Positions 1,910 to 21,197 of a stretch of DNA of 27,063 bases are shown one piece after another. The notes under the pieces were generated by a model. That model saw only the letters and a list, made by a program, of their open reading frames with translations, was not told the origin of the DNA and searched no databases. The DNA lies in the IMG/VR virus record IMGVR_UViG_3300007345_000208, positions 1 through 27,063 of that record; one strand, given 5' to 3'. Position numbers and translations under genes: made by a program. The stretch is from a virus. Positions within the stretch are counted from its first letter, which is position 1. The number at the start of each line of letters is the position of its first letter.

Positions 1910-1931
1910 ATAGTACAGAATGAAAATTTAA

Positions 1932-2654: not shown

Positions 2655-2880
2655 GAATGTTGATTATATGAAAGAAACATGGGGAACAACTAGTTTAATT
2701 ACTGATTATTGGTCAAATCCGAAGCAAAAAATGCTTCGTGAGATCGCAAATGATGATATGACACCCAAAAAACACGATTTTCACACTCAAAATGAGTTAC
2801 ATGAAAAAATTCGTAATGATGAGGACTATGATGACTGGGATTATGGCACTGAACCCACCTATGGATCAATAAAAGGGTAA
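2629..2880 (+). CDS. 83-aa acidic hypothetical protein
   Basis: ATG 2629 lies seven bases after AGGAG (2617-2621), a strong ribosome site located inside the end of the 240-aa gene, so the 26-base overlap is well supported. The product is hydrophilic and becomes strongly acidic and aromatic near its C-terminus (RNDEDYDDWDYGTEPTYG). It has no cysteine, membrane span or recognisable motif apart from KQKMLREIANDDM, which predicts a helix. The family is not recognised. The frame closes at TAA 2878-2880, which overlaps the late promoter motif of gp25. It may be co-transcribed with the 240-aa gene. Confidence 0.65.
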   Translation: MANNPNPDRNVDYMKETWGTTSLITDYWSNPKQKMLREIANDDMTPKKHDFHTQNELHEKIRNDEDYDDWDYGTEPTYGSIKG

Positions 2881-2886
2881 TAAATA
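2879..2886 (+). promoter_or_regulatory. T4-type late promoter (AATAAATA)
   Basis: AATAAATA fits the NATAAATA late-promoter consensus reported for T4-like cyanophages and the TATAAATA core of T4 late promoters. It lies 20 bases before the gp25 start, in the short gap between two genes, and is followed by an AT-rich leader. The same motif at nearly the same spacing occurs before the fibre gene and gp8. Confidence 0.65.
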
Positions 2887-2906
2887 AGATAGAATTATAA
2901 TTTTTT

Positions 2907-3308
2907 ATGCCTGTAGAACGGGTAAGTAAAGGTTTTAAGGACATTAGTTCTTCATTTCAGGTCAATCCATTGACCTATGATTTGATTGCGATTAAAAATG
3001 AGACCGCAATTGCCCGTTCTATTCGGAATCTTGTACTTACATACCAAGGAGAAAGACCTTTTAACCAAATTTTAGGTTCAAAAGTCAGTCGCCTTCTCTT
3101 TGAGAACGTAAATGAGATTACTGCATCATCTATTGAAGATGAAATTAGAACAACCATCAATAATTTTGAACCAAGAGTGAATTTACTTAATGTAAAAGTT
3201 GCTCCAGACTACGATAATGGCGAATTTAATGTAACCGTTAGATATGAAATTGTTGGAATTGATGTCGCAGCTCAACAATTATCATTTGCATTACAACCAA
3301 CACGATAA
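2907..3308 (+). CDS. 25: Baseplate wedge subunit gp25
   Basis: The 133-aa length and pattern match the gp25/GPW family of contractile tails and related secretion machines. The family core is visible: an N-terminal FKDISSSF and NPLTYDLIAIKNETAIARSI, then LVLTYQGERPFNQILGSKV, then EIRTTINNFEPRVNLLNVKV with the hallmark E88-P89-R90-V91, and a final beta-strand region. In T4 this protein joins gp6, gp7 and gp53 in the wedge around the hub and may prime sheath assembly. The ATG follows a late promoter motif by 20 bases. The stop codon overlaps the start of gp6 (TAATG), as expected for products that assemble together. Nothing unusual is seen. Confidence 0.93.
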   Translation: MPVERVSKGFKDISSSFQVNPLTYDLIAIKNETAIARSIRNLVLTYQGERPFNQILGSKVSRLLFENVNEITASSIEDEIRTTINNFEPRVNLLNVKVAPDYDNGEFNVTVRYEIVGIDVAAQQLSFALQPTR

Positions 3309-5209
3309 TGGCACTAGTAAATTTCGCTAATTTAGATTTCGATCAGATTAAAACATCGATTAAGGATTACCTTAGATCGAATTCAAATTTTACTGACTAT
3401 GATTTTGAAGGATCTAATCTTTCAACAATCATAGACACTCTTGCGTATAATACATACATCACTTCATATAATGCCAATATGGTGGCAAATGAAGTGTTTA
3501 TCGATAGTGCTACACTTAGAGAGAATGTTGTTTCTCTTGCAAGAAATATTGGATATGTTCCAAGATCAAGAAGATCTGCAAGAGCAAAGGTATCATTCTT
3601 TGTTGATACAACCAATTTTACAAATGTTCCAACACAACTAACACTTAAATCGGGTGTTGTATGTACGACACGTTCGTTTGGAACAGAAAGTTATTCATTT
3701 ATTATTCCATCAGACATTACTGTACCAGTTACAAACAACATCGCAGAGTTTAATGATGTTGAGGTATACGAGGGAACACAAGTTATTCAAAATTTCACAG
3801 TAAATCCTTTTGATTTAAATCAAAGATTCATACTTGATAACGCTGGAATTGATACAAGAACAATTGCAGTAAGTGTAAAACCAAGTGAAAACTCTACAGT
3901 TAGCAGAACTTACACTTTAGCAAATAGTCTTTTTGATATAAATTCAGATTCAGCGATTTATTTCATTCAAGAAATAGAAGATGAAAGATATGAATTAATT
4001 TTTGGAGATGGTATCTTTGGTAAAAAATTATCAGAACCAAATTATATCACAGTTAGGTATGTTGTATCTAATGGTTCTGATGCAAATGGTCTTTCATCAT
4101 TTGTTTTTAATGGAACACTTGTCGATCAAAGCGAAAGAATAGTAACATCTGGAATATCATTACTTACAACAATAGAATCATCACAGTTAGGTGATTCGAT
4201 TGAGACTGTTGAATCGGTCAAGAAGTATGCAACTAGAATATATGCATCAAGAAACAGAGCAGTAACCGCTGCTGACTATGAAGCATTAATCCCTTCAATT
4301 TATCCAGAAGCAGAATCTGTTTCAGCATATGGTGGGGAAGAATTATCACCACCACAATTTGGAAAGGTTTTCATTAGTATCAAACCATATAATGATCGCT
4401 ACTTATCAAACTTAATTAAGGATAATATTAAAAGAGAACTTAAGCAATATTCTGTTGCTGGCATTATCCCAGAAATTGTTGACTTAAAATACTTGTATGT
4501 TGAAGCATCGTCTAATGTTTATTATAACACCAATTTAGCGGCGTCTGGAAACGCCGTTAATAGCGTTGTTTCTGCAAATGTGAGTGCATATGCCGATTCT
4601 ACTGAATTAAATAAATTTGGTGCAAGATTTAAATATAGCAAGTTTCTAAACATAATTGATGAAAGTCATCCAGCGATTACATCAAATATTACCAACATAG
4701 TAATCAGAAGAGATTTAAAAGCTTCCTTGAATACTTTTGCAGAATATGAGATATGCTTCGGAAATAGATTTCATATCAAGAATGTAAATGGATATAACAT
4801 CAAATCATCAGCATTTAATATAAGTGGAATTGGAAGTCCTGTTTATCTTATGGACATGCCAGATCAAAATCAAGAAACTGGTTCCATTAACATTTTTAAG
4901 TTAAATTCTCCAACCCAACCACAAATTGTGAAAAGAAATGTTGGAACAATTGATTATGTAAAAGGTGAAATTAAGTTATATCCAATCAATATAACTTCAA
5001 CAGCATTATATAAAGGAGCACCAATTATTGAAATATCAACTTCACCATATTCAAATGATGTTATTGGATTACAGGATCTTTATTTGCAACTAGATATTAA
5101 TAATACTTTTATTAAAATGGTTTCAGATAGTATATCATCAGGCGCTGATATTTCTGGAACAAATTATACAGTTTCATCAAGTTACTCCAACGGAATTTAC
5201 GTAAGATAA
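3308..5209 (+). CDS. 6: Baseplate wedge subunit gp6 (baseplate J-like)
   Basis: This 633-aa protein, close to the length of T4 gp6, begins MALVNFANLDFDQIKTSIKD and continues with NFTDYDFEGSNLSTIIDTLA and YNTYITSYNANMVANE. This is the typical opening of gp6/J-like wedge proteins. The helical segment FIDSATLRENVVSLARNIGY is the conserved J-like core. A middle beta-rich region (IYFIQEIEDERYELIFGDG and GKKLSEPNYITVRYV) and RIYASRNRAVTAADYEALI (about 310-330) also match the family. In the particle gp6 dimers link neighbouring wedges into the inner ring. The start overlaps the gp25 stop, and a six-base gap separates it from the giant gene. Alternative identity is unlikely given the gene order. Confidence 0.92.
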   Translation: MALVNFANLDFDQIKTSIKDYLRSNSNFTDYDFEGSNLSTIIDTLAYNTYITSYNANMVANEVFIDSATLRENVVSLARNIGYVPRSRRSARAKVSFFVDTTNFTNVPTQLTLKSGVVCTTRSFGTESYSFIIPSDITVPVTNNIAEFNDVEVYEGTQVIQNFTVNPFDLNQRFILDNAGIDTRTIAVSVKPSENSTVSRTYTLANSLFDINSDSAIYFIQEIEDERYELIFGDGIFGKKLSEPNYITVRYVVSNGSDANGLSSFVFNGTLVDQSERIVTSGISLLTTIESSQLGDSIETVESVKKYATRIYASRNRAVTAADYEALIPSIYPEAESVSAYGGEELSPPQFGKVFISIKPYNDRYLSNLIKDNIKRELKQYSVAGIIPEIVDLKYLYVEASSNVYYNTNLAASGNAVNSVVSANVSAYADSTELNKFGARFKYSKFLNIIDESHPAITSNITNIVIRRDLKASLNTFAEYEICFGNRFHIKNVNGYNIKSSAFNISGIGSPVYLMDMPDQNQETGSINIFKLNSPTQPQIVKRNVGTIDYVKGEIKLYPINITSTALYKGAPIIEISTSPYSNDVIGLQDLYLQLDINNTFIKMVSDSISSGADISGTNYTVSSSYSNGIYVR

Positions 5210-5215
5210 AAAGAT

Positions 5216-8200
5216 ATGTCAGAAACAAGAGTAAAAGTTCAGTCGATTGTTGAAAATCAACTTCCCAATTTTATTGCGGAAGATTCTCCACTCTTAGTAG
5301 AATTTCTTAAGCAGTATTATGTTTCGCAAGAGTATCAAAGTGCTCCTGCTGACATAATTCAAAATATCGACAAGTATTTAAAACTTGAGGAAAATTCTTC
5401 AACTGTCGAATTTACATATCTTTCTGAAGATGTTGAATCATATTCAACATCTATTAATGTTTATCCTGGCAATTCTGCAACCGGATCGTTATTTACTGAA
5501 GGATTTCCTGACAAGTATGGACTTCTTTTAATTGACAACGAAATTATTACCTATGAGTATAAAACCAGATTTACTTTTGTAAATTGCAAAAGAGGGTTTA
5601 GTGGCGTAACTTCATATTCAAAAACAAATGAGCCAGATGAACTAAAGTTTGAAAGTTCAATTGCAGAAAGTCATACTAAAAATACGAAGGTTTATAATCT
5701 TAGCGCTTTATTTTTAAAGGAATTTTTACAGAAAATAAAGAGACAGTTCATTCCTGGATTTTCTGATAGATCTTTAGATTCTGATTTAAATCAAAGAAGT
5801 TTTATATCAAATGCAAAAGATTTTTATACCTCGAAAGGAACTGATAAATCTTTTAAAATTCTTTTTGGTGCTTTATATGGAGAAAATGTTGAGGTAATTA
5901 AACCAAGAGACTATCTTTTCAGACCATCTGATGCAGGATATAGAATTACAAAAGATCTTGTAGTTGAAGCAATTTCTGGGAATCCATTAGAACTTTTAAA
6001 CAAAACACTTTATCAGGACGAGTACTCTGACTATAACATTGATAATTCATATGCTTCAATTACTGATGTTAAAAAAATATTTTTAGGTGGGAAAGAGTAT
6101 TATCAATTAGGTTTTGATGCTGATTATAATAAGGATCTTATTCTCGAGGGATCTCTTTATGGTAATTTCTCATTACATCCCAAAACTATTGTTGTATCCA
6201 ACGTATCTGCAGGATCAACAGTAATTGATGTTGACTCTACGATAGGGTTTCCTGCATCAGGCACCCTGATAAGTACTTTTTCAAATGGTTCCGAATCTAC
6301 ACTAACATACAGTGGTAAATCAGTAACTCAGTTTTATAATGTTTCTGGAGCATCTTCTGACATATCCCCAGAAACAGAAATTAGACTTGATGTATATGCA
6401 TACGGATATGCTGGTGTTTCAACTGACAGTCCTATTAAAGTAAGAATTGGATCTGTTCTGAATGAAGTTGTTATTCCAAATGACACATATCTTTTCTCGA
6501 AAGACGATACTGCAAAAATCAAAACCTTAGGAATTTCTTCAGAAAGTGTTAGAAGAAATAACTGGGTTTATAATATTGCAAATACTTATAAAGTAGAATT
6601 TTTTGCTCTGAGAGATTCTTCTAATTATACTTACGATCTAACGACTTTTGATTCGCATAATTTTAGAGTTGGTGACAGAATAAAGATTACTGGAACTGAT
6701 TCTGTATCAAATGATTCAACTATTGTAGATGTTCTTTCTGATAAAAGAATTTCTGTACGCGGACAGGGACAGTTAAACACAGATTTGACATATACTATTG
6801 ACAGATATATTACAAAACCAAATTCTACAGCATATTCATATTTAAATAATAATACAGCAAACGTACAAAACGTATATACAAACTATTCTGATGAAGTTTT
6901 AGTTGCTTCTCCATCTTTACCATCATACTATAACCAATTAATAAATCCATATAACAAAAAAGTAACAGTTTCTGGAAGTTTTAGTGGAGAAGTTCTTCAA
7001 ATAACCTCTGGTACTGACCATGGTTTTTATACAGGAGATAAAATTTATTACTCTCCACTTAAAGTTGCTTCTAATTTTGCGGATGATGATATTGTAAGCA
7101 AGTTTCCTGAACTTGTTGAGGGTCTTTACTATGCAAAAAGAGTTAGTGCAACAAGTATAAGTCTTGCAAAGAGTCCATCAAACTTAGCAAATGGAGAATA
7201 CATTTCTGTATCAGGCATAGTTACTTCCAATACTTTTGAGTATTATGACTTTGCAAATAAAATTATACAACCACAAAATATTTTACGTGAAATAAAAGAA
7301 CCAACCAATAAGAGTGCAAATTATGAAACTAAACCAGGAAAAACTGGTATTTTGGTTAATGGTGTAGAGATTTTAAATTACAAGTCTTCAGAAACCTTAT
7401 TCTATGGTCAGATTAACAATATTGATGTAACTGCTCAGGGCAGTGGATATGATGTAATTAACCCACCAAGTCTTGATATATCAGATTCTCAGGGTATAGG
7501 TGCAACAGGTATTTGCGCTGTTAATGGCACCTTACAAAGAATTGAAATTATAGATGGTGGTTTTGACTATGTAAACAAACCAACAGTAACAATAACTGGC
7601 GGAAATGGTGTAAATGCTTCTGCCGAGGTAAGTACAATTTCAGTAGATCATAATGCGTTCTTCAATGCAGAATCTACTTCTACCAATGTCAATTTGTTTA
7701 CTGACACGATTGGATTCTCTACTTATCATAAATTTAGAGATTATGAAAGAGTAATTTACTTACCAGATAATCAAAAGGCTATTTCTGGTCTCACTACTGA
7801 ATCAGCTTATTACGTCTCTGTTATTGATGGTTTTAATATTAAACTTCATGCAAAACAAAGTGAGGCAATTTCTGGTATCAATACAGTTAATCTCAATGAT
7901 TATGGAACTGGTATACACAGATTTAAATCTGCTACCAAGAAGGAAATTATATCCGAAATAGTAGTAACAAATAGTGGTACAGGATATCAAAATAAGCAAA
8001 GAACAACACAAATTAGTGGTGTTAGCACCTCTCTGAATACTATTAATATTGAATCGCACGGATACTTTACTGGCGAAGAACTGACGTATTCAACATCAGG
8101 AACTGTAATATCAGGTCTTAATACATCTTCAACTTACCTTGTTAAAAAAATTGATGAAGATTCCTTTAGATTGGCACCAGTTGGGTTGGGAACGACAGCA

Positions 8201-11200
8201 AAAACAGAATTTTTGGATTCTGAAAGATTTGTTGAATTCTCTTCTGCTGGTACTGGTATTCATTCATTTAATTATCCAGAAATTAGTGTAAGAATTGTTG
8301 GAAATATTGGGGTTTCCACTTTATCTGGACAAGATTTCTCAGCAAAAGTACAACCAATTTTCAGAGGTAGTATTGATTCAGTCCATTTAACCTCGAAAGG
8401 AACAAATTATGGTTCTGAAGAAATCATCAACTACAACAGACAACCAATTTATGATTTCAGAAGTGGAAATGGTGCAGAACTGCTTGTAATAGTTAATAGT
8501 GGGGGTGGTATTCAAGAGGTATTGGTTACAAGACCTGGATCAGGATACAATAGCCCACCAAACCTTGTTATTAGTGGTAAAGGAAATTATGCAAAACTTA
8601 CACCAATAATCAAAAATGGAGAATTGGTGGAGGTTAAAGTTATTAAGAGTGGAATTGGATATGATGATACTACAAGCGTAGATGTAATTTCTGCTGGAGA
8701 AAATTGCAGATTATTTGCAAGTATTCAAAAGTGGACAGTTAATTTGTTCCAGAAATATTTTAATACTATCACACCTGACGATGGTATTGTTACTACTTCT
8801 GATAGAGATTCTTACGGTCTGCAGTACTGTCACCTCTATGCTCCAAGAAATCTGAGAAGGTCATTATATTCAAAATCACAAAGTGGAGATACTAAGGTAA
8901 TAAGAGATCTGATTTTATATGGAATTACTGATTTACGCGAAGTTAATAATGAAGAAGTGTCTTCCGCGTATCACTCCCCAATAATTGGATGGGCTTATGA
9001 TGGCAATCCAATCTACGGTCCATATGGATACTCTACACCAACCGGTGGAACTTCAAAATCATTGAAATCTGGATATGAATTGGTAACTAAACCAAATAGA
9101 CCTTCTCTTACATATTTCCCACAAGGATTTTTTAATGAAGATTATGAGTTTAAGGGAAATGGTGATTTAGATGAACACAATGGAAGATTCTGCGTTACTC
9201 CAGATTTTCCAAATGGTGTTTATGCATACTTCTCAACTATTAGCACCGAAAACGTAGATACTGATGGTCCTTTTAAGGGATACAAGAGACCAGTCTTCCC
9301 ATATTTTGTTGGAACAAAATATTATTCGCAACCAATAGATTTTAACTTCTCCACATACTCTAATCAAGACGATTATTCGTTTGATGGATTTAATTGGTTT
9401 AGAAATACTACAAATTATAATCTGAAAGGTGCTAATAGTTCATATAATTATGTCTTCAATCCAGATAAAGTAAAAAATCAGACAGTAAACATAAATTATG
9501 CTTCTTCCGGAAAAGTTGAAAGCATTGGAATATTGACTGGTGGTACAAATTATAATGTAAATGATCGTTTATTATTTGACAACTCAGACACTGGTGGAAA
9601 CAATGCATCCGCAAAGGTAGAGAAAGTTTTTGGCAAAGATGTTACTGCAGTTAGTGTTGCAACAACATCTTTCTCATCTGTTGAGTTTGCTACTTTAGAT
9701 GGTTCCAATACTGTAATTGGATTCGCCACATCACCACACGGATTGAAAAATCTTGAATTAATTTCTTTGTCAGGATTTAATACTTATTTCTCAAGTCTGG
9801 CAGGTTCTTACACTCTAGGAATAAGAACTGATAACTTTGTTACTGCATTGGGAATTTCAACTATTGGTGTCACTGGTTTAACCACATATTTCTATCTTTC
9901 TGGTATTTTGGAGTATCCATATATCAGAGAAAATGACATCTTGGGTATTGGAACTCAAGAAAAGGTCAAGGTTTTAAATGTAGATTCGCCTGCAGGAAGA
10001 ATTAGAGTTTTAAGAGAATATGATTCAACAGTAAGTTCTGCGTATTCTGCAACCACCGTTCTTTATGAAGATCCAAGAAAGTTTAAAGTCAATACTGGAT
10101 TTAAAACCGACTATGCTTATGCAACAAATAAAGAAATTTATTTTGAACCCAAAGAATCAATAGGAATTGGAACTATTGCCTCTGTTGGAATCGGAACAAC
10201 TGTAGTCTTCTCTTTACCTGGAGTTGGATTAACTCAAGTTTTTGTTCCATATCAATCAATTTATCTTCCCAATCATAATTTAAAGACTGGTGAAAAGGTT
10301 CATTATTCTACAAATGGTGGCACACCAGTTTCGGTGTTTAACGGAAATTCATCTTTCTCGCTGCCACAGGGTCAAGATCTTTATGTTGCTAAAATTTCAA
10401 ATAATTTAGTTGGACTGTCTACTGTAAAAGTTGGTCTTGGTACTACAGGTTCTTTCGTTGGAATTGGAACAACCAATTCTACAGGACTTCTGTTCTTTGA
10501 AAACTTTGGTGTTGGGGATTATCACAGCATTACAACTAAGAGACAATCAATCATTGGTGAAATATCTAAAAATATTGTAACCGTTGCAACAGCATCTACG
10601 CATGGTCTCAACACTGGCGATAATATAGAATTTGTATCTAAACCAAAAAATCAAGAAACAATAACAGTAAGTTATAATGACACCAATAGAAGATCTGTCT
10701 TTAATCCCAAATCATTTGACGCAATTGATGTAGATGTTAGTGAAGATACGATTTATATCGAAAATCATAACTTAAATACGGGCGACAAAATTATTCATAC
10801 TTCAACTTCACCTTCTGGTGGTTTGTTGGATGAGAAAATTTATTATGTCTTATATTATACTAAAGATAAAATTAGATTATGTAATACACTTTATGATCTT
10901 TCTTTAAATATTCCCAATTATATTGGTATTACCAGCTCTTCTGATGGTATTCTTTATTCAATCAATCCACAATTAAATCTGTATAAAAATAAAACTATTA
11001 AATTTGATTTATCAGATCCTTCACTGTCATACTTGAATGGTTCAACTCTATATTCAGCTTTCCAACTCAATTTCTATTCAGACTCACAATACCACTATAA
11101 ATTTGATGGCACAGGCATATCCAATAACTTTGAAGTTATTAGAACTGGCAGAGTTGGTATTGATACTACAGCAAGTGTATCACTTGTTCTTAATGATAGT

Positions 11201-14200
11201 TTCCCACAGACTTTCTACTATAAGTTAGAAACTGTCAATAACGACTTTATAGAAGATGTAAAGAAAGAAATAATCATTGATAAGGATGTCTTTAACAATA
11301 ATCAAATTAATCTTATTGATAGTGTTTATTCTGGATTGCACAGAGTATCTGGTGTCGGATCAACCACATCATTTACCTTTAATCTGACAGATTATCCTGA
11401 AGAAAATTCTTATAATCAAGATACTGCAAATCTTTATTATGAAACAACTTCTCCAACAGCGTATGGACCAATATCTAAGGTAAGTGTAATTAGTGGAGGA
11501 AGTAATTATGAATTTACACCTGGAATTAGTTCAGTAACTACAAACTATGGTAGTGGTGCTATTTTTGAGTCGCAGAGTAATTCTATTGGAAAAATCGTCA
11601 CAAATCAAATAGAAAATATTGGATTTGATTATCCGACAGATTTGACATTATCACCTACATTGAATCTGCCTGAGATACTTAATGTAGAACCACTGACTTC
11701 GTTTAAGAGTATTGGTATTACTTCTGCAGGCAAAAACTACTTAACATCGCCAGGATTAGTTGTTATTGACGGATTTAGTAAAAAAATTGTATCTGATGTT
11801 GATCTAAGATATGATCTTGGAGCAACTCAGGTAAGAATATTAAAGAATACTTATGGGATGTACAATACAACACCCACAATTATTCCAATATACAATTCAA
11901 ACGGTGTTGGTATTAATTCAATAACATATAATCCAACCACAAAAGACGTTGTAGTTGGTTTTAATACTGGATTTAGTGATACATTCCCATTTGCAGTTGG
12001 CGATGAGGTTTTAATCGAAAATACTAGTGTTGGAATTGGATCTACCGCAAGAGGTTTCAATTCCTCAGAATATGATTATAAATTATTCACCCTAACTGAG
12101 GTCAATCCTGCTTTGGGTGGAAATACAGGTTCCATTACATATAATTTGTCAAATTATCTCACAACAAATGAATTTCCTGGAATATTTGATGCATCAAATT
12201 CTTTTGGTAGAGTTGTTAATAAAAATGATTTCCCAGTTTTTGATATTAAACTGAAAAAGAATGATTTCTTTGTGGGAGAAACTGTATATTCACAAACAGG
12301 GATTGGTATCGTAGAAAGTTGGAATAACAAAATCGAATATCTAAAGGTATCAACAGATAGTGATTTGTTGATAGGTGAGATTGTTACAGGTCAATCATCT
12401 AACACTAGAGGTGTGATAAAGAAAAAGATTGATTTTGATTCATTTATAAAATTAGCACCATCTTCAAAGGTCAATAAAGGATGGATTTATGATACAGGAT
12501 TCTTAAACAACAATGTTCAAAGAATTGCAGATAACAATTACTACCAGTATTTCTCATATTCTTTAAAATCAAGAATTCCATATGAAAATTGGAACGAGCC
12601 TGTTCAATCTTTGAATCACACTTCGGGATTCTTAAAATTCTCTGATCTTATTATAGAAAATCAAGATGGTGATAGAAATTCAGCAACTCCTTTTACACAA
12701 GACAGTGTTGCAGATATTGTAGTTGATTTGGTTGGTAGTGGAAACATAAATTGCGTATATACCTTCGATTTAGCAACAGAAAAAACTACTAATATTGGTA
12801 CTAGATTGGTTTCTGATGAGGTAATACTGCAAAATAGAGTTTTGACTGATTATTTTGAGTCGATTGGAAATAGAGTTCTTATTATTGATGATATAAGTGA
12901 TAAATTTAATAGCAAAGCAAGACCAACAAGATTCAGTACTATTGATCAGTTTGAATTAGACTCTGCTAGAACCAAAAAGTACTTTACATTTGTAAGAGAT
13001 AAGAGATTCACATTAGAAAGACAGATTATGGTAGTGTCATTACTACATGATAATGTTAATGGGTATCTTAATCAATATGGTAGAGTAGAAACATATTCGG
13101 ATCTTGGATCTTTTGATTTTAATATCACATCAACTTTAGGTCAACTTAATTTCTATCCAATTAAGTACAGAATAAATGATTATGATATATCATATATTTC
13201 GCACGATTTAAAAGATTCTGTATCGGGTATAGGTCAGAGTTCATTGGGTAATGTTGTTAACATAAATTCCACACAAACCACATTTGCTTCCGGTTCATCT
13301 TCTGCAGGAACTATAGTTTCAATAGCAGATACTTATCGATCCGCAAAAGTTCTTGTTGAAATTGGTGGTGTTGATGGTTCCTATTATGAATTTGATGAGA
13401 TTAACCTTTTACAAGATGGAACTAATGTTGATATTGTTGAGTATGGTCAATTAACAGATCATATAACTACCAATCCTTATGGTGTTCCAGGTCTTGGTAC
13501 ATATATTCCATACATTGATGGTTCAAACATTAAGATTGACTTTAAACCAAATGCAGCTCTTGGAGTTGGTGTAACAATCAACACATTGGTTGTATCAATA
13601 GCAAGTTCTACATCAGCATCCGTTGGTGTAGGAACAGAAGAGTTAAAGACTGGATACGTAAGTTCTGGTATTGCTTCAATCACTGCCTCTGGTTCTCCTG
13701 CAGAAACTGTAATTACTGAATATCCAAATGACAGTTCTTGTGCATATTATATTGTAAGTGTTGAAGATACTACAAACCAAAGATATCAAATGTCTGAGGT
13801 TGTAGTCATTGATGATGGCACAGATGTTTCTATGACCGAATATGGAATTATTCAGTCACACACATCTCTAGGTAATGTTGGTGCTGCAATAAGCACAAAT
13901 GGAACTCAACTTACCTTTACACCAGAACCAAGTATTGATGTCCAAGTAAGAGTTTTCCAAAATGCACTTCGTCTTGTTGAAGATGAAAATTCTGTATCTA
14001 ATACATCAATCAATCTTAATAATGCTGAAATTGTTAGTAGTTATGGAAACTATGATGGAACAGAAACATCTGTTATAAGAAGTTTTGACTTAACTCATAA
14101 CCAAAATCCAATATTCTTGAGATACTTCAATGGAAGTAGTTCTGACATTATCGATACATCCACAGATTCTATACTCATTCCAGATCATTATTTTGTAACT

Positions 14201-17200
14201 GGCGAAAAAGTAAGATATTCTTATGCTGGTGCTGGAACAACTCAAGCAATTGGAATTGCTGCAACCGTTGTTACAGGTATTGGATTGACTGATAAACTTC
14301 CATCAACAGTTTATGTTGTAAAAGTTGATGAAAGTACAATCAAGTTGGCAGAAAATGCTTCTAATGCATTAAAAGAAACACCCGTTGTTTTTGATATTAC
14401 ATCTGTTGGAATTGGAACATCACATTCTTTAATTGCAACTAATCAGAATGCAAAAGGTCTTATTGCAATTGATAATTATATTCAATCACCAATTGTTGGA
14501 ACATCAATTACCACATCTTTAGGAAAAAATGTAACTATTGTTGATACTCGTCTTACCTTTACTGGAATTACTTCATTCTTCAGTGGAAATTTGATTCAAA
14601 TTAATGATGAAATTATGAAGATCGATACAGTTGGTATTGGAAGTACCAATATTGTATTAGTTAATAGATCTTGGATGGGAACTGGATTATCAACCCACTC
14701 TTCTGGTGATCTTATTAGAATAATTGACGGAAATTATAATATTATTGATAATACAATTCACTTTGCAGAAGCACCTCATGGATTAACACCAATAGGTTCT
14801 GTAACAAATCCACCAAATGAAAGGGATTGGGTAGGAATTGCGACACATTCTACCTTCCAGGGTAGAACATTTATGAGAAGTGGTGTTACAGACACTACAC
14901 AAGAGACTTATGAATCCAATTATATCTTTGATGGAATATCTAATCAGTTTAATGGAATTGATAAGACATTCACTTTGACCGTAGACGATCAAAATGTTGC
15001 TGGTTTCTCAACAAATAATGCTGTAATTCTTATTAATGGAGTGTTCCAAGGTCCACAAGGAGAACAAGCAGAATTAGAAGATTACACACTCATAGAAAGT
15101 GCTGGTATTTCAAGTATCAGGTTTGTTGGAACAGCATCTTCTGTTGGATATGATGTCAATAATGCAAATGTTCCTGTTGGTGGTGTAATTGTTTCTGTTG
15201 GTTCTTCTACAGGATTTGGATTACAACCTCTTGTCTCTGCTGGTGGCACTGCTGTTGTTTCTGCTGCTGGAACTATTTCAGCGATTAGTATTGGAAATAG
15301 TGGTTCTGGATACAGAATTGGAATACAGACTGTAGTTAATGTTGGAGTTCAAACTACAAGCACAGGAACACCAAATATTGAGTTTATTGGAACTGCTTCG
15401 GTAAGCAATGGTCATATCATTGGTGTTGCGATTACTAATCCTGGATTTGGATATACTACAACTAATCCGCCAATTGTCGTTTTTGATGACCCTCTCTCTT
15501 ATTCTAATATTCCTTTGATTTATAGTTCTTCCTCTTATCAAGGAACAGGAACTGAAGCAAAAATTGATGTTGTTGTTGGTCAAGGTTCTAGTGTAATTGA
15601 CTTTACAATCAAAAATACTGGATATGGTTATGGTCAAGGAGAAATTCTAACAGTTGAAATTGGTGGCAACACTGGTATTCCAACAGATACCACAAAACCA
15701 TATGAACAGTTCCAAGTTACAGTTGATAGAACATATAATGACTTATTCTCGGGATGGGTTCTTGGACAGTTAGAAGTTCTTGATAGTTTTGAGGATCTAT
15801 TTGATGGTACAACTAAAAAGTTCCCATTAAAACTTGGTGGAAATCTAGTTACAATCCGTTCAACAAAAGGATCGAATATTGACATAAAATCAACACTTCT
15901 TATATTTGTTAATGATATTCTCCAAAAACCAGGTGAAGCATATTACTTTGAAGGTGGAAGTGTTGTAGAGTTTAGTGAAGCTCCCAAAGAAGGTGATTTT
16001 GTAAAAGTCCTATTCTACAAAGGAAGTGGTGATATTGATGTAATCTTTAGAGATGTTTTAGAAACAATTAAGGTTGGTGATGAAATTACTTTAAACTATG
16101 AACCAGGTTTTGGGCAGGGATTGGGACTTCAAGAAGAATCTAGAGTTGTTACCGGTATTAATACCACAGATTCTTTGGAAACAAACCCATATTCTGGACC
16201 AGGAATAACTACAGATGATACTTTGGCAAGACCACTTAAATGGTGTAGACAAACTTCTGACAAAATCATTAATGGTAGAATTGTTGGAAAAGATAGAATT
16301 CATTATGAACCATTAATTAATCCTTCATCATATCTGATTAGTTCCGTAGGAGTTGGTTCAACAACAATTTACGTTGATAATATCAAACCATTCTTTGATG
16401 CCCAGAATGAAGGTACATCACTAGATTTCCAAAATAAAGTTACATTTATATCTCAAGACTCTTTAGTAGCAGCATCTGCAACAGCGATAGTTTCTACTAC
16501 AGGTTCAGTGACTTCAATTGATGTAACTGAAGGTGGTTATGGTTATTCTTCTACGCCATTAGTAACGATACAAACACCTGTTGGTATTGGAACTACACAA
16601 AAAGCAACTGCTACTGCAACACTTACGTCAGGATCTGTTGCAACTATTTCTGTAGTAAGTGCAGGAACTGGATATACAAATACAAATCCTCCGGCAGTTC
16701 TTATCGAACCACCAACTTTATTGAGTGAAGTTGCAGATACTATCAACTATTCTGGAGATTCTGGCATAATTGTTGGTGTTGGAACTACAGCACAGGAAAC
16801 AATATTTGATTTGTTTATTCCTACAGATTCTTTCTTGAGAGATAATACATTAGTTGATCCTGCTATCACTGTAAGTGGAATATCTACTGGCGACTTCTTT
16901 GTTGTTTACAATTCAAACATTGGAAGTGCTTCAACATCTATTGATTCATTCAACAGTTCTAACGAAATTATTGGAATAGGAACTCAATTCTTAGATAATG
17001 TTTACCAAGTATCATCTTGCTCAGATGTTCAAGTGAATGTTATTGGTGTTGGCACAACATCAGTAAGAAGGGTATATGTGAGAACTGGCATCAGTACTAT
17101 TGATTTTAGTTCAACAACTATCACTTTTGATTCTACTGTATATGATTTCAGTTCTATTGGAATTGGCGCTGGTGCAGGCACTTTCCTTGGAATAACAACA

Positions 17201-17362
17201 TCAAACTACTATGGCAATTTTAGTTGGGGTAAAGTTGTTCTTTCAAAACCTCTAGAAAATGGTTCATTTAATTCATATACATTTAGAGGTGTTGGTGGAA
17301 TATCAACCTCGGCATTTGTAAACAGAACCGCTCCGCTGAAGTATTTAAACTATACTAGCTAA
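5216..17362 (+). CDS. Giant (4048 aa) gp7-like baseplate wedge/structural protein
   Basis: One unbroken frame makes a giant, acidic, beta-rich protein with no signal peptide. Residues about 1-240 look like the conserved core of T4 gp7: LPNFIAEDSPLLVEFLKQYY, LFLKEFLQKIKRQFIPGFS, and DFYTSKGTDKSFKILFGALY followed by GENVEV (about 201-226). T4 gp7 has a similar segment near its C-terminus, as I recall it. The rest is modular. H-x(3)-TG-(D/E) units occur near residues 602, 948, 1687, 1796, 1851 and 2991. There are at least 14 G-x-(G/N/D)-Y beta units, many VGIGTT motifs, a YHYH-type domain (about 1200-1375) and a duplicated domain (about 2689-2923). The C-terminus ends near NRTAPLKYLNY. T4 gp7 is about 1030 aa, so this is roughly four times larger. 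Position after gp6 supports the wedge role; fibre or adhesin functions of the long tail are inference. Confidence 0.8.
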   Translation: MSETRVKVQSIVENQLPNFIAEDSPLLVEFLKQYYVSQEYQSAPADIIQNIDKYLKLEENSSTVEFTYLSEDVESYSTSINVYPGNSATGSLFTEGFPDKYGLLLIDNEIITYEYKTRFTFVNCKRGFSGVTSYSKTNEPDELKFESSIAESHTKNTKVYNLSALFLKEFLQKIKRQFIPGFSDRSLDSDLNQRSFISNAKDFYTSKGTDKSFKILFGALYGENVEVIKPRDYLFRPSDAGYRITKDLVVEAISGNPLELLNKTLYQDEYSDYNIDNSYASITDVKKIFLGGKEYYQLGFDADYNKDLILEGSLYGNFSLHPKTIVVSNVSAGSTVIDVDSTIGFPASGTLISTFSNGSESTLTYSGKSVTQFYNVSGASSDISPETEIRLDVYAYGYAGVSTDSPIKVRIGSVLNEVVIPNDTYLFSKDDTAKIKTLGISSESVRRNNWVYNIANTYKVEFFALRDSSNYTYDLTTFDSHNFRVGDRIKITGTDSVSNDSTIVDVLSDKRISVRGQGQLNTDLTYTIDRYITKPNSTAYSYLNNNTANVQNVYTNYSDEVLVASPSLPSYYNQLINPYNKKVTVSGSFSGEVLQITSGTDHGFYTGDKIYYSPLKVASNFADDDIVSKFPELVEGLYYAKRVSATSISLAKSPSNLANGEYISVSGIVTSNTFEYYDFANKIIQPQNILREIKEPTNKSANYETKPGKTGILVNGVEILNYKSSETLFYGQINNIDVTAQGSGYDVINPPSLDISDSQGIGATGICAVNGTLQRIEIIDGGFDYVNKPTVTITGGNGVNASAEVSTISVDHNAFFNAESTSTNVNLFTDTIGFSTYHKFRDYERVIYLPDNQKAISGLTTESAYYVSVIDGFNIKLHAKQSEAISGINTVNLNDYGTGIHRFKSATKKEIISEIVVTNSGTGYQNKQRTTQISGVSTSLNTINIESHGYFTGEELTYSTSGTVISGLNTSSTYLVKKIDEDSFRLAPVGLGTTAKTEFLDSERFVEFSSAGTGIHSFNYPEISVRIVGNIGVSTLSGQDFSAKVQPIFRGSIDSVHLTSKGTNYGSEEIINYNRQPIYDFRSGNGAELLVIVNSGGGIQEVLVTRPGSGYNSPPNLVISGKGNYAKLTPIIKNGELVEVKVIKSGIGYDDTTSVDVISAGENCRLFASIQKWTVNLFQKYFNTITPDDGIVTTSDRDSYGLQYCHLYAPRNLRRSLYSKSQSGDTKVIRDLILYGITDLREVNNEEVSSAYHSPIIGWAYDGNPIYGPYGYSTPTGGTSKSLKSGYELVTKPNRPSLTYFPQGFFNEDYEFKGNGDLDEHNGRFCVTPDFPNGVYAYFSTISTENVDTDGPFKGYKRPVFPYFVGTKYYSQPIDFNFSTYSNQDDYSFDGFNWFRNTTNYNLKGANSSYNYVFNPDKVKNQTVNINYASSGKVESIGILTGGTNYNVNDRLLFDNSDTGGNNASAKVEKVFGKDVTAVSVATTSFSSVEFATLDGSNTVIGFATSPHGLKNLELISLSGFNTYFSSLAGSYTLGIRTDNFVTALGISTIGVTGLTTYFYLSGILEYPYIRENDILGIGTQEKVKVLNVDSPAGRIRVLREYDSTVSSAYSATTVLYEDPRKFKVNTGFKTDYAYATNKEIYFEPKESIGIGTIASVGIGTTVVFSLPGVGLTQVFVPYQSIYLPNHNLKTGEKVHYSTNGGTPVSVFNGNSSFSLPQGQDLYVAKISNNLVGLSTVKVGLGTTGSFVGIGTTNSTGLLFFENFGVGDYHSITTKRQSIIGEISKNIVTVATASTHGLNTGDNIEFVSKPKNQETITVSYNDTNRRSVFNPKSFDAIDVDVSEDTIYIENHNLNTGDKIIHTSTSPSGGLLDEKIYYVLYYTKDKIRLCNTLYDLSLNIPNYIGITSSSDGILYSINPQLNLYKNKTIKFDLSDPSLSYLNGSTLYSAFQLNFYSDSQYHYKFDGTGISNNFEVIRTGRVGIDTTASVSLVLNDSFPQTFYYKLETVNNDFIEDVKKEIIIDKDVFNNNQINLIDSVYSGLHRVSGVGSTTSFTFNLTDYPEENSYNQDTANLYYETTSPTAYGPISKVSVISGGSNYEFTPGISSVTTNYGSGAIFESQSNSIGKIVTNQIENIGFDYPTDLTLSPTLNLPEILNVEPLTSFKSIGITSAGKNYLTSPGLVVIDGFSKKIVSDVDLRYDLGATQVRILKNTYGMYNTTPTIIPIYNSNGVGINSITYNPTTKDVVVGFNTGFSDTFPFAVGDEVLIENTSVGIGSTARGFNSSEYDYKLFTLTEVNPALGGNTGSITYNLSNYLTTNEFPGIFDASNSFGRVVNKNDFPVFDIKLKKNDFFVGETVYSQTGIGIVESWNNKIEYLKVSTDSDLLIGEIVTGQSSNTRGVIKKKIDFDSFIKLAPSSKVNKGWIYDTGFLNNNVQRIADNNYYQYFSYSLKSRIPYENWNEPVQSLNHTSGFLKFSDLIIENQDGDRNSATPFTQDSVADIVVDLVGSGNINCVYTFDLATEKTTNIGTRLVSDEVILQNRVLTDYFESIGNRVLIIDDISDKFNSKARPTRFSTIDQFELDSARTKKYFTFVRDKRFTLERQIMVVSLLHDNVNGYLNQYGRVETYSDLGSFDFNITSTLGQLNFYPIKYRINDYDISYISHDLKDSVSGIGQSSLGNVVNINSTQTTFASGSSSAGTIVSIADTYRSAKVLVEIGGVDGSYYEFDEINLLQDGTNVDIVEYGQLTDHITTNPYGVPGLGTYIPYIDGSNIKIDFKPNAALGVGVTINTLVVSIASSTSASVGVGTEELKTGYVSSGIASITASGSPAETVITEYPNDSSCAYYIVSVEDTTNQRYQMSEVVVIDDGTDVSMTEYGIIQSHTSLGNVGAAISTNGTQLTFTPEPSIDVQVRVFQNALRLVEDENSVSNTSINLNNAEIVSSYGNYDGTETSVIRSFDLTHNQNPIFLRYFNGSSSDIIDTSTDSILIPDHYFVTGEKVRYSYAGAGTTQAIGIAATVVTGIGLTDKLPSTVYVVKVDESTIKLAENASNALKETPVVFDITSVGIGTSHSLIATNQNAKGLIAIDNYIQSPIVGTSITTSLGKNVTIVDTRLTFTGITSFFSGNLIQINDEIMKIDTVGIGSTNIVLVNRSWMGTGLSTHSSGDLIRIIDGNYNIIDNTIHFAEAPHGLTPIGSVTNPPNERDWVGIATHSTFQGRTFMRSGVTDTTQETYESNYIFDGISNQFNGIDKTFTLTVDDQNVAGFSTNNAVILINGVFQGPQGEQAELEDYTLIESAGISSIRFVGTASSVGYDVNNANVPVGGVIVSVGSSTGFGLQPLVSAGGTAVVSAAGTISAISIGNSGSGYRIGIQTVVNVGVQTTSTGTPNIEFIGTASVSNGHIIGVAITNPGFGYTTTNPPIVVFDDPLSYSNIPLIYSSSSYQGTGTEAKIDVVVGQGSSVIDFTIKNTGYGYGQGEILTVEIGGNTGIPTDTTKPYEQFQVTVDRTYNDLFSGWVLGQLEVLDSFEDLFDGTTKKFPLKLGGNLVTIRSTKGSNIDIKSTLLIFVNDILQKPGEAYYFEGGSVVEFSEAPKEGDFVKVLFYKGSGDIDVIFRDVLETIKVGDEITLNYEPGFGQGLGLQEESRVVTGINTTDSLETNPYSGPGITTDDTLARPLKWCRQTSDKIINGRIVGKDRIHYEPLINPSSYLISSVGVGSTTIYVDNIKPFFDAQNEGTSLDFQNKVTFISQDSLVAASATAIVSTTGSVTSIDVTEGGYGYSSTPLVTIQTPVGIGTTQKATATATLTSGSVATISVVSAGTGYTNTNPPAVLIEPPTLLSEVADTINYSGDSGIIVGVGTTAQETIFDLFIPTDSFLRDNTLVDPAITVSGISTGDFFVVYNSNIGSASTSIDSFNSSNEIIGIGTQFLDNVYQVSSCSDVQVNVIGVGTTSVRRVYVRTGISTIDFSSTTITFDSTVYDFSSIGIGAGAGTFLGITTSNYYGNFSWGKVVLSKPLENGSFNSYTFRGVGGISTSAFVNRTAPLKYLNYTS
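8810..9340 (+). other. YHYH-type domain inside the giant baseplate protein
   Basis: Residues about 1200-1375 of the giant contain, in family order, QYCHLYAP, then YHSPIIGWAYDGNPIYGPYG (from Y1252), then LDEHNGRFCVTPDFPNGVYA (from L1318) and finally VFPYFVGTKYY. These fit the YHYH protein family signature, in which an SPxxGxAxDGxPIYGPYG block is followed by LDxxNGRxxxTPxxPxGxYHY and FPYxxG. Here the second YHYH tetrad is YAYF, so some of the namesake histidines are lost. Confidence 0.7.
13280..13985 (+). repeat. Diverged tandem duplication of a ~115-aa domain in the giant
   Basis: Two adjacent segments of the giant, residues about 2689-2808 and 2811-2923, share the same layout. In copy 1, SAKVLVEIGGVDGSYYEFDE is followed by INLLQDGTNVDIVEYGQLTD, then IKIDFKPNAALGVGVTINTL. 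In copy 2, AYYIVSVEDTTNQRYQMSEV is followed by VVIDDGTDVSMTEYGIIQSH, then LTFTPEPSIDVQVRVFQNAL. Shared positions include the DGT-V---EYG core. The duplication is diverged at DNA level, so it is old. Confidence 0.7.
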
Positions 17363-17399: not shown

Positions 17400-19595
17400 A
17401 TGTCAAGAGTAGCAATAAACACCGGATCAGTTGGAAATGACGGAACTGGTGATAGTTTAAGAACTGCTGGTGGTATTATTAATGATAATTTTGCAGAAAT
17501 TTATAGTCAGTTTGGCGATGGTACAAATTTAACACCAACTTGGGATAAAACTGCGGCTGGTGTTAATACAACTTCTAATGTTGGAATTGGAACAACAAAT
17601 CCAAGATTTGCTCTTGAGGTTGGTTCTGTTGGGTCATCAGGAACTTCCTTGTTTGTCAATGGCAATGCAAGAGTTACTGGTATTTTAACTGTAGGTTCTT
17701 CTTCTATTATATTGGATGGAAATACAAATAAAATACTTGTAGGATCTGGAATTTCTTTTGATGGAAACACTGGTGTAATCAGCGCAACTGCTTTCTATGC
17801 TGGTGGTTCAATTGTATCTGCTGGTGGAGAATCCTATTGGGATCAAACAGAAGTAGGTATTCATACACTTTCTAATGTTGGTATAGGAACAACAAATCCA
17901 ACAAGTGCTCTCACAGTAAAAGGAAATACTTCTCTTGAAACTTTAAGTGTTTCTGGTGTTTCTACTTTTAGTGGTGATATAAAATTTTCAGGAACATATG
18001 GAGATAATGGAGCTTTATGGGATGAATCTGAGGGTGCTCTTATATTTAAAGATGGGAGGGAAATAAGATTTGGTGATTATGATGGAAGTGGTGGTGATTT
18101 GAGAATTTATCATGATGCAGGTGGTTCTCATAGTTACATACAAGATACGGGAACTGGTAATCTTAGAATAATTTCTAATGGTGATACTATTGAGTTGTTG
18201 AAAGGTACATCCGAAACTATGGCAAAGTTCAACACTGACGAGTCAGTGGAACTTTACTATGATAACTCTAAGAAATTTGAAACTCTTGGCGCTGGTGTAA
18301 CAGTTACTGGAACTACCTTCACAAATCAGTTAAATGTTTCTGGTATTTCTACATTTTCTGGAAGAATTGTTGGTCCAGTAAGATTTTCTAAAGATGGTTC
18401 TGCGGATGCATCACAAAATGTAGAAATAAACAACGACGGTTCTTATGCATTTTTAAATGTCGGCGGCTCGTCATCATTCTATTTTGATTCTCCAAATACT
18501 AACATAAGAAATACTTTCAGTGGTGGAAGAATTCGTATGGATTCTCCATCGGGAATTGATTTTGAACAGTATGGACTTGGGGGAGCATACAGAGCAAGAT
18601 TTGATGACAACTCAGTAAGTTTATATTCTTCAAATAGTAAAAAATTTGAAACTCTTGGCACTGGTGTAACAGTCACTGGAACTACTTTTACCAACCAGTT
18701 AAGTGTTTCTGGTGTTTCTACCATTAACGGGATTACTGTTAAGGGACCAGGTTCTACTAACGTTTACATTGGGCAGAGTGTAGCAAATTCCGACCTTGGG
18801 GGACAACAAAACACTGCTGTTGGATATTATGCACTTAATAATGCGATAAACTGCAACTTTAATACTGCAGTTGGAACACAAGCTCTATCTAACTTAGGAA
18901 TTAATAATCCATCTACTTCATTTCAAAGAAATACTGCCGTTGGAACTGGAGCTGGACAACAACTCACTTATGCAAATAATAATACATTTATTGGAGATTT
19001 TTGTGGATCTCTTATTACTACTGGAAGTTCAAATACAATTATTGGAAAATATAGTGGAAATCAAAATAATCTAGATATTAGAACTTCATCAAATAATGTT
19101 GTTCTTTCTGATGGTGATGGTAACATTAGACTTTATGCAAATTCCAGTGGCAATATCGGAATAGGAACCACAAATCCAACGGCTGACGTTACAACATCAA
19201 ATACCAATGTTCTCGCAGTTGGCATAGTTACTGCAAATACTTTTTATGGAGATGTATCAAATGCTGCAGTAGGTAGATGGATTCTAGGTGCTAATGGAAC
19301 ATCTGATTATACATTTACTGGAATTGGATTTACACAAACCACAAATGATCCAGTTTTATATCTCGCAAGAGGTATGGTATATGAGTTTGTAAATAACTCT
19401 GGAGGTGCTCATCCTTTTGAAATTCGCGTTTCTAATGGTGGAGCAGCATATAGTGATGGCGTCACTAATAATGCAGCAGCAACGGGCGTCATAAGATTTG
19501 AAATTCCTTTCAATGCTCCAAACACATTATATTATCAATGTACAGCTCATTCGGGAATGGGAAATACAATTAGTGTTTATCCTAACACTATCTAA
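17400..19595 (+). CDS. Tail-fibre-like structural protein with C-terminal cupredoxin-like domain
   Basis: The 731-aa protein opens with AINTGSVGNDGTGDSLRTAG and IINDNFAEIYSQF, an attachment motif common at the N-terminus of T4-like fibres. It continues with beta-rich fibre repeats built from VGIGTTNP and VSGxSTFSG segments, a LRIYHDAGGSHSYIQDTGTG block, and an 80-base intragenic duplication. About residues 470-565 carry NTAVG-(x)-AL / NTxIG-(x)-G repeats that resemble trimeric beta-helix heads (YadA type). SSNNVVLSDGDGNIRLYANS and SGNIGIGTTNP follow. The last ~100 residues form a cupredoxin-like domain with His671, Cys714, His717 and Met720. The protein is probably a trimeric fibre or baseplate spike that contacts the host. 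It lies between the gp7-like gene and gp8, which are neighbours in T4, and has its own late promoter. Confidence 0.78.
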   Translation: MSRVAINTGSVGNDGTGDSLRTAGGIINDNFAEIYSQFGDGTNLTPTWDKTAAGVNTTSNVGIGTTNPRFALEVGSVGSSGTSLFVNGNARVTGILTVGSSSIILDGNTNKILVGSGISFDGNTGVISATAFYAGGSIVSAGGESYWDQTEVGIHTLSNVGIGTTNPTSALTVKGNTSLETLSVSGVSTFSGDIKFSGTYGDNGALWDESEGALIFKDGREIRFGDYDGSGGDLRIYHDAGGSHSYIQDTGTGNLRIISNGDTIELLKGTSETMAKFNTDESVELYYDNSKKFETLGAGVTVTGTTFTNQLNVSGISTFSGRIVGPVRFSKDGSADASQNVEINNDGSYAFLNVGGSSSFYFDSPNTNIRNTFSGGRIRMDSPSGIDFEQYGLGGAYRARFDDNSVSLYSSNSKKFETLGTGVTVTGTTFTNQLSVSGVSTINGITVKGPGSTNVYIGQSVANSDLGGQQNTAVGYYALNNAINCNFNTAVGTQALSNLGINNPSTSFQRNTAVGTGAGQQLTYANNNTFIGDFCGSLITTGSSNTIIGKYSGNQNNLDIRTSSNNVVLSDGDGNIRLYANSSGNIGIGTTNPTADVTTSNTNVLAVGIVTANTFYGDVSNAAVGRWILGANGTSDYTFTGIGFTQTTNDPVLYLARGMVYEFVNNSGGAHPFEIRVSNGGAAYSDGVTNNAAATGVIRFEIPFNAPNTLYYQCTAHSGMGNTISVYPNTI
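18273..18721 (+). repeat. 80-bp direct repeat within the fibre gene
   Basis: Segments 18273-18352 and 18642-18721 align without gaps over 80 bases with eight mismatches (90% identity), 369 bases apart and in the same frame. Both encode KFETLG-GVTVTGTTFTNQL followed by VSG-ST. A related VSG-STFSG stretch occurs at about 17948. The similarity suggests recent duplication or ongoing recombination of fibre modules. Confidence 0.85.
19287..19595 (+). other. Amicyanin-like cupredoxin domain at the fibre C-terminus
   Basis: Residues about 630-731 read as a small beta-sandwich: DYTFTGIGF, DPVLYLARGMVYEFVNNSGG, then AHPFEIRV, VIRFEIPFNAPNTLYYQCTA, HSGMG and ISVYP. The four possible type-1 copper ligands are all present: His671 in AHPF, and C-x2-H-x2-M at Cys714, His717 and Met720. 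That spacing equals amicyanin's (CTPHPFM) and is near plastocyanin's. Copper binding itself is inferred. Confidence 0.7.
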
Positions 19596-19628: not shown

Positions 19629-21197
19629 ATGTCTGCAATAATTACTGATCAACTTCGTATATTAAATGCAAAGAACTTTGTAGCAGGGGTTGCTTTAACT
19701 AGCAACTCTTACTATTCTTTTGTTGGTCTGCCAAATCCAACTGATTATAATACTGACTGGAACACAAGTCCACCATCTCCTGTTGATAATTTTAATCAGG
19801 AAAACAATCATTGGGACACAATGATTGCGATGAAAAAAATATCCAAAACTGATGTTAGACAGGTTGTAAGAAAAACTATTTGGACATCTGGTGTTACTTA
19901 TGATATGTATCGCCACGACATCAGTGCAACAAAGCTATCACAACCATCAAATTCGGTTGATTTATACTCTGCAAACTATTATGTTTTAAACAGTGATTAT
20001 CGAGTTTATATTTGTCTGCAAAATGGAACTTCTCCAGAAAATCCATCCGGAAGACCTTCTCTTGATGAACCAACATTCACTGATTTAGAACCAAGAGAAG
20101 CAGGAACAAGTGGTGATGGTTATATTTGGAAATATCTTTACACAATTAGCCCAAGTGATATTGTAAAGTTTGACTCTACAAACTATATGCCAGTTCCACA
20201 AGACTGGGATACAAGTTCAAGAGAAGCGGCAGTTAGAAATAATGCAGCGTCTAGTGGACAATTAAAAATTGTAACCATCACCAATAGAGGTGTTGGATTA
20301 GGAACAGCAAATAGAACTTATACAAGAGTACCTATTAGGGGTGATGGTTCCGGTGCAGAAGCAACTGTTGTTATTAATAATGACTCTAAAGTCGAAACTG
20401 TAACTGTTTCTAGTGGTGGATCTGGATATACTTTTGGTACGTTAGATCTTGTTGGTGGTAATGTTCCAACAGGCACAACATTACCAGTCTTTAACGTTAT
20501 CATTCCTCCACAAGGTGGTCATGGTGCAGACATTTATAAAGAACTTGGTGCATATAATGTTCTTCTTTATTCTAGAATTGAGAATGATGCAGAAAATCCA
20601 GACTTTATTACTGGAAACCAAATTGCACGAGTTGGCATTGTAGAAAGTCCTTTAAGTAATGGTTCTGATAGTATTCTAACACTTGATAAAGCAAGTGCTG
20701 TTTATGCACTCAAGCTGACAGGTATTGGTTATAGTTCTGTTGTCTTTAATGCAGATACACAAATCACCCAAACTATCGGTGTTGGATCAACTGCTTTTGG
20801 TAGAGTAATTTCTTATGATCAAAGCACAGGTGTTTTGAAATATTGGCAAGATAGGTATCATTGTGGTTTCAATACTAATGGTACGCAAAACGCATCACCA
20901 ACTTACGGATTTGCCTTACATAGATTTACTGCTGATATTGGAGGTGGCGGATCTTTTAACATTCTTGGTGGTAGTGCAACTTTAGCAATCCAAACATCAT
21001 TTGGTAGCGAAAGCAACCCGGGTATCAGTACCGTAATAAATAGTAGGACATACTATTTGGGCCAACAGTTTGTTAAGGGTGTGTCACAACCAGAAGTCCA
21101 AAAGTATTCTGGAAATATCATTTACGTTGATAATAGACCATCAATTACTCGGTCAACAAACCAAAAAGAAGATATTAAAGTCATTTTGCAATTCTAA
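19629..21197 (+). CDS. 8: Baseplate wedge subunit gp8
   Basis: This 522-aa protein has the opening and closing signatures of T4 gp8 relatives. The N-terminus reads ITDQLRILNAKNFVAG and SYYSFVGLPNPTDYNTDWNT, then WDTMIAMKKISKTDVRQVVR. The C-terminus reads SGNIIYVDNRPSITRSTNQK and EDIKVILQF. In between are DGYIWKYLYTISPSDIVKF and a GGSGYTF beta unit like those in the giant. It is longer than T4 gp8 (334 aa), as I recall is usual for cyanophage versions. In the particle gp8 dimers bind the gp7 arm and connect to gp10 and gp25. A late promoter lies just upstream and the stop is six bases from the next start, so gp8 and the following DUF4815 protein are probably co-transcribed. Confidence 0.85.
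   Translation: MSAIITDQLRILNAKNFVAGVALTSNSYYSFVGLPNPTDYNTDWNTSPPSPVDNFNQENNHWDTMIAMKKISKTDVRQVVRKTIWTSGVTYDMYRHDISATKLSQPSNSVDLYSANYYVLNSDYRVYICLQNGTSPENPSGRPSLDEPTFTDLEPREAGTSGDGYIWKYLYTISPSDIVKFDSTNYMPVPQDWDTSSREAAVRNNAASSGQLKIVTITNRGVGLGTANRTYTRVPIRGDGSGAEATVVINNDSKVETVTVSSGGSGYTFGTLDLVGGNVPTGTTLPVFNVIIPPQGGHGADIYKELGAYNVLLYSRIENDAENPDFITGNQIARVGIVESPLSNGSDSILTLDKASAVYALKLTGIGYSSVVFNADTQITQTIGVGSTAFGRVISYDQSTGVLKYWQDRYHCGFNTNGTQNASPTYGFALHRFTADIGGGGSFNILGGSATLAIQTSFGSESNPGISTVINSRTYYLGQQFVKGVSQPEVQKYSGNIIYVDNRPSITRSTNQKEDIKVILQF

Follow-up and report, generated by a model that had tools for sequence, protein, structure and literature searches.

A predicted cupredoxin domain with a conserved type-1 ligand set at the C-terminus of a gp9-type baseplate protein in marine cyanophages

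Known cupredoxins and metals in phage tails

Cupredoxins are known as cellular electron carriers and as domains of enzymes. Amicyanin is a periplasmic single-domain electron carrier that works with a partner dehydrogenase, plastocyanin is a soluble photosynthetic carrier, and rusticyanin carries electrons in acidophiles. In plastocyanin and amicyanin the first ligand stands in a His-Asn context, in which the backbone NH of the Asn bonds to the Cys sulphur, and the type-1 site of laccases includes a His-Pro-Phe comparable to that of the domain described below. On the viral side, gp9 of phage T4 joins the long tail fibres to the baseplate and, as far as is known, has a beta-sandwich of a different, fibre-binding type at its end. 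Iron at the tip of T4 gp37 and in His-x-His tail fibres sets a precedent for transition metals in the adhesion proteins of phage tails (PMC11705849). No description of a cupredoxin domain in a virion was found in the literature, which is weak evidence of novelty as most subscription papers lay outside the search, and Pfam and NCBIfam likewise yielded no description of the C-terminal gp9 domain discussed here. The nearest reports, of a phage petE listed as a separate gene (PMC2984593) and of a viral NirK (PMC8115048), concern different things.

A gp9-type protein in a cyanophage baseplate cluster

The window analysed here is the whole of a 27,063-nucleotide stretch (positions 1 to 27,063 of IMG/VR virus record IMGVR_UViG_3300007345_000208). 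Its features of interest, with the evidence for each, are as follows.

2907-3308, gp25, neighbouring gene in the window (Pfam/PHROG matches)
3308-5209, gp6, neighbouring gene in the window (Pfam/PHROG matches)
5216..17362, plus strand, giant gp7-type baseplate wedge protein, 4048 aa (PHROG 2885)
17400..19595, plus strand, gp9/gp10-type connector between baseplate wedge and tail fibre, 731 aa (PHROG 677, Pfam T4_gp9_10_N, gene order)
17412..17543, plus strand, N-terminal T4 gp9/gp10-type domain, residues 5-48 (Pfam PF07880, E 2e-7)
17979..19241, plus strand, repetitive fibre-like middle, about residues 194-614 (PHROG tail fibre families; direct repeats of 103 and 75 nt)
19287..19595, plus strand, predicted C-terminal cupredoxin domain, residues 630-731 and the stop codon (AlphaFold, Foldseek against the PDB, profile against the PDB)
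19410..19412, plus strand, candidate ligand H671, in His-Pro-Phe (no variation across 23 divergent domains; in register with the first His in plastocyanin and in amicyanin)
19539..19541, plus strand, candidate ligand C714, where a predicted strand ends (model, conservation, alignments)
19548..19550, plus strand, candidate ligand H717, in the loop that joins the last two strands (model, conservation, alignments)
19557..19559, plus strand, candidate axial ligand M720, just before the last strand (model, conservation, alignments)
19629..21197, plus strand, gp8 baseplate wedge subunit (Pfam Phage-Gp8, E 1.1e-13; PHROG 438)
21204 to the window end, further long ORF

The N-terminus of the ORF at 17400-19595 scores 31.7 bits against Pfam T4_gp9_10_N (cut-off 25), and PHROG 677, ‘baseplate wedge tail fiber protein connector’, matches the whole protein at E 2.5e-44, most strongly over the C-terminal domain, which is part of that family profile. 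The gene lies in the order gp25-gp6-gp7-gp9-gp8, and phages RB11-B and P-TIM68 have a matching arrangement of gp7-type gene, gp9-type gene and gp8. Because of the N-terminal domain, the PHROG match and the gene order, the ORF is identified as the gp9/gp10-type connector of a cyanomyovirus-like phage, the N-terminal domain being, by analogy with T4, the likely baseplate end. It thus shares its N-terminal domain and gene neighbourhood with T4-type gp9, while PHROG 677 carries no copper annotation. Proteins of this type differ greatly in length among the relatives, that of S-SSM7, at 244 aa, being the shortest and that of P-TIM68, at 814 aa, the longest. The preliminary description had placed a copper site at the tip of a cyanophage tail fibre; the C-terminal position holds, whereas a fibre tip was not established, given that the protein is classed as a connector.

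Some other features of these clusters were noted in passing. The giant gp7-type protein contains a YHYH domain (window 8957-9247, Pfam E 2.7e-25), predicted elsewhere to be a zinc-dependent tail-associated hydrolase (PMC7824862), and one uncultured phage protein named YHYH protein was found in a viral fold search to have a cupredoxin-like fold as well. Also within the baseplate cluster, window 1932-2654 encodes a 240-residue protein that matches PHROG 3704 at E 2e-110, a family with the putative label ‘ferredoxin’. In S-SSM7 and P-SSM2 a gene for a subtilisin-type peptidase (PF00082) directly precedes the cupredoxin-bearing gene.

Predicted fold and comparison with known copper proteins

All four candidate ligands, H671, C714, H717 and M720, are present in residues 630-731 with the C-x2-H-x2-M spacing first reported. 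This motif occurs once among the main ORFs of the window, and a profile of the domain has a single match in the entire 27,063-base record (E 1.9e-52). AlphaFold, supplied with an alignment of 70 sequences, predicts a Greek-key beta-sandwich of eight strands with a pLDDT of 92.3 and a pTM of 0.85. In this model, numbered as the window residue minus 614, C714 (residue 100) ends strand 95-100, H717 is residue 103, M720 (106) lies just ahead of strand 107-113 and H671 (57) just ahead of strand 59-62; the last three ligands of the His/Cys/His/Met set thus fall in the loop before the final strand, in the model as in the alignments and the relatives. As modelled, this layout of strands and ligands is the arrangement of type-1 sites.

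Comparison with known structures points the same way. The best 50 Foldseek matches in the PDB are named copper proteins, including rusticyanin, nitrite reductase, plastocyanin, amicyanin, AcoP and laccases, together with a few respiratory-complex chains that we take to be cytochrome oxidase subunit II; their probabilities are 0.99-1.00, the best E is 7e-5 and the query TM-scores are 0.40-0.57. When a profile of 22 relatives was compared with PDB sequences, 29 were matched at E up to 1 (best E 0.014), and all 29 are copper proteins of cupredoxin fold or multicopper-oxidase-type proteins; each match is weak singly, and it is their uniformity that is the evidence. A cupredoxin sandwich had been proposed from the letters alone, and the structure prediction bore this out, with cupredoxins at the top of both the fold and the profile comparison. 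A multicopper oxidase or nitrite reductase was considered and dropped, as there is one domain with one site. In the viral fold library, ‘beta-sandwich’ proteins of Marseillevirus- and Pithovirus-like giant viruses also match the cupredoxin model.

Detection of the fold depended on an alignment profile and on structure prediction: used as a single sequence against Pfam, NCBIfam and the PDB, the window domain gave only sub-threshold cupredoxin matches. The scores were 13.5 bits for Pfam Copper-bind (cut-off 21.2) and 17.1 for the halocyanin model (cut-off 93.8). These missed cut-offs count against the reading of the domain as a metal site, though they argue against those subfamilies more than against the fold.

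None of the described cupredoxins is a complete match for the phage domain. Rusticyanin gives the best PDB fold match (E 7e-5) but is a longer protein with 18-20% identity. With Prochlorothrix plastocyanin, hhalign (E 1.5e-5) places all four ligands in register on the shared fold, with a two-residue gap in the loop, where the plastocyanin C-x2-H-x4-M is two residues longer than the loop of the phage domain. With an amicyanin (hhalign E 7.5e-4) the four ligands are likewise in register, and the C-x2-H-x2-M loop aligns ungapped. The amicyanin spacing claimed in the preliminary description therefore stands as far as loop length goes, but it does not extend to family membership: the NCBIfam amicyanin model TIGR02657 left the window domain unmatched at E up to 0.5 and matched 13 of 22 relatives weakly (best E 1e-3), and Pro, not Asn, follows the first His in 22 of the 23 phage domains compared. 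This His-Pro(-Phe), which would remove the NH bond to the Cys sulphur, suggests a shifted redox potential in the phage domain, and its unlikeness to plastocyanin and amicyanin is counted against the metal-site reading.

Conservation of the ligands

Two of the peptide patterns used to find loci contain the ligands themselves, so conservation was counted again on a divergent set gathered almost entirely by tblastn. It holds 23 domains, namely the window domain and those of 21 named phages, with two from P-SSM2, the second of which came in through the motif. Their pairwise identity has a median of 37% and a minimum of 22%, and among roughly 102 columns just six show no variation, those of the ligands H671, C714, H717 and M720 and those of Y712 and G641. 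The chance that four chosen columns are all invariant is about 3.5e-6, and an artefact of the search patterns was rejected since the invariance persists in this mostly tblastn-collected set. Free variation of C714, H717 or M720 in homologues had been named beforehand as the observation that would sink the claim; it was not seen, and the H...C-x2-H-x2-M set recurs widely in cyanophages.

The larger collection is supportive only, as its loci were partly found with ligand-containing patterns: of 123 distinct domains of nearly full length, every one has the His and Cys ligands and 122 have the Met. Ligand codons vary synonymously, both CAT and CAC and both TGT and TGC being used. The single Met exception is a Gln in a different protein, a related C-x2-H-x2-Q domain encoded by a downstream ORF (L142:4173-4508); a type-1 site with an axial Gln is known from stellacyanin. 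One locus (L165) has Lys at the axial position. The conservation count excludes a Hodr fragment truncated at the end of its record and also S-CAM1, whose copy may be permuted or broken: in the tail protein at ORF 1904-4159 of that phage (L088) a C-x2-H-x2-M piece precedes a His-Pro-Phe piece, and this protein possibly holds a permuted or rearranged cupredoxin.

Some relatives (e.g. L044, L047 and L130) encode further domains of similar type in the large downstream ORF, which hhalign links to the gp9 domain (probability 97%, E 7e-11). Across eleven rows of an alignment, a few of which are almost the same, the Cys, second His and Met are gone (YYFDRTV...DKG), and L044:6013-6438 and its relatives retain the His-Pro strand despite this loss. 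The model of a ligand-free copy (pLDDT 76.8) matches generic Ig-like sandwiches more than cupredoxins; these domains are diverged relatives, not a clean apo copy. The absence of Cys, His and Met from such nearby domains indicates that the ligands are not conserved simply because the scaffold demands them, and these phages do lose ligand residues when they are not needed. The earlier view that a preserved set would be unexpected in a mere structural knob agrees with this, since constraint on the ligands goes beyond what the scaffold requires.

Distribution in phages and cells

At E up to 0.01, tblastn found the domain in 340 phage records, nearly all of Synechococcus or Prochlorococcus phages and most of them with gp9 as the annotation; for scale, the gp8 of the window finds 458 records with such phage names. 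As judged from these searches, the cupredoxin domain is common but not universal in marine cyanophages and is not peculiar to the IMG/VR phage. S-SM2 is an example of a related phage without the domain, gp9 being absent between its gp7 and gp8, and this is counted against the metal-site reading. The domain is also found in the Prochlorococcus podovirus P-SCSP2 and the pelagiphages HTVC028P and Baldr, which belong to the divergent set of 23 domains, and in several phage types it recurs in proteins that bear a tail fibre or spike annotation.

In scanned genomes of bacteria and archaea 13 loci were found; among them, L187, L190, L191, L192 and L195 resemble phage gp9 genes inside assembled genomes. 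On a Bacteroidetes contig (L193, ORF from 1864), a 137-residue protein with a lipoprotein-type N-terminus and little beyond this domain is a possible free cellular relative; another Bacteroidetes protein (L188) has a signal-like N-terminus and collagen-like repeats. The first His is kept in every cellular match that covers its position, which is the only informative ligand here as the scan pattern included the Cys loop.

A proposed metal site on the attachment apparatus

Considering what such a domain may do on a baseplate connector, we favour, with modest confidence, the explanation that a true cupredoxin with an intact type-1 metal site ends gp9 and binds metal in the mature virion, most likely copper, where it stiffens a docking or adhesion surface. 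The gp9 N-terminus would anchor in the baseplate wedge and present the cupredoxin at the opposite end, as the T4 analogy suggests. Metal would be loaded after synthesis, perhaps as copper from host lysis or from seawater, and would tie the ligand loop to the opposite strand, giving a stiffer exposed surface that may hold a fibre or touch the host; copper is the most likely metal because the axial Met is invariant in the relatives. Since cupredoxins usually fold without copper, stabilisation alone is not the first role that one would expect. Retention of the ligands at identities down to 22% suggests that the particles carry metal, probably copper, on their attachment apparatus. The metal-site reading is supported by the predicted fold, the register of the ligands, the selection on them, the C-terminal place in gp9 and the precedent of metal in a tail adhesin (PMC11705849). 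The purpose may be comparable to that of the iron sites of the T4 gp37 tip, where iron is held through paired His-x-His, whereas the phage domain would use a His2-Cys-Met set within one chain.

The same evidence bears on several other explanations. Invariance of all four ligands, including an axial Met that tunes redox behaviour, and recurrence of the domain in annotated tail fibres and spikes would also fit copper- or redox-dependent host recognition, in which the centre itself touches some surface component, acts as a redox sensor or takes advantage of copper uptake as a copper ‘Ferrojan horse’. We consider this unlikely, though credible, and less likely than a structural metal role, as no receptor or redox partner is known and the domain sits mostly on a baseplate connector. 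A site that takes zinc or another metal from the host cytoplasm, in a purely structural role, would suit phage proteins that fold where free copper is scarce, and type-1 sites are able to bind zinc in vitro; the axial Met, invariant in 22 of 22 relatives, is typical of copper sites and brings no clear advantage for zinc, which leaves this explanation doubtful.

Phage adhesins often reuse beta-sandwiches, and the domain might instead be a metal-free structural knob whose ligands are kept for packing or by descent. This seems improbable, given that the ligands persist at 22-40% identity in a scaffold that is mostly variable, that their codons vary synonymously and that related domains nearby have lost them. 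That curated family models were not reached could be taken to mean that the motif arose by chance in a fibre domain of unrelated kind, but fold, profile, register and conservation agree with one another and make this barely credible. Taken as a whole, the interpretation offered in the preliminary description is partly supported.

Significance for marine phages

Neither the fold nor the site is of a new kind; the novelty, as far as the checks reached, lies in the setting, in the His-Pro context and in how widely the domain occurs among marine phages. For the cupredoxin fold, a strictly kept type-1 site in a baseplate connector would mean a new place of occurrence, in viruses that are abundant in the ocean, and, if metal-bound, the site would add a further metal in phage tails to the known iron. 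A wider and rather unlikely prospect is that copper-loaded type-1 centres sit on the baseplates or fibres of most marine cyanophages of the T4-like type, and of some SAR11 phages, and are themselves active in adsorption or triggering; if this were true, infection would be copper- or redox-dependent and virions would form an ocean pool of strongly bound copper. The domain provides a concrete lead for the C-terminal part of PHROG 677 and ties phage attachment to ocean copper chemistry.
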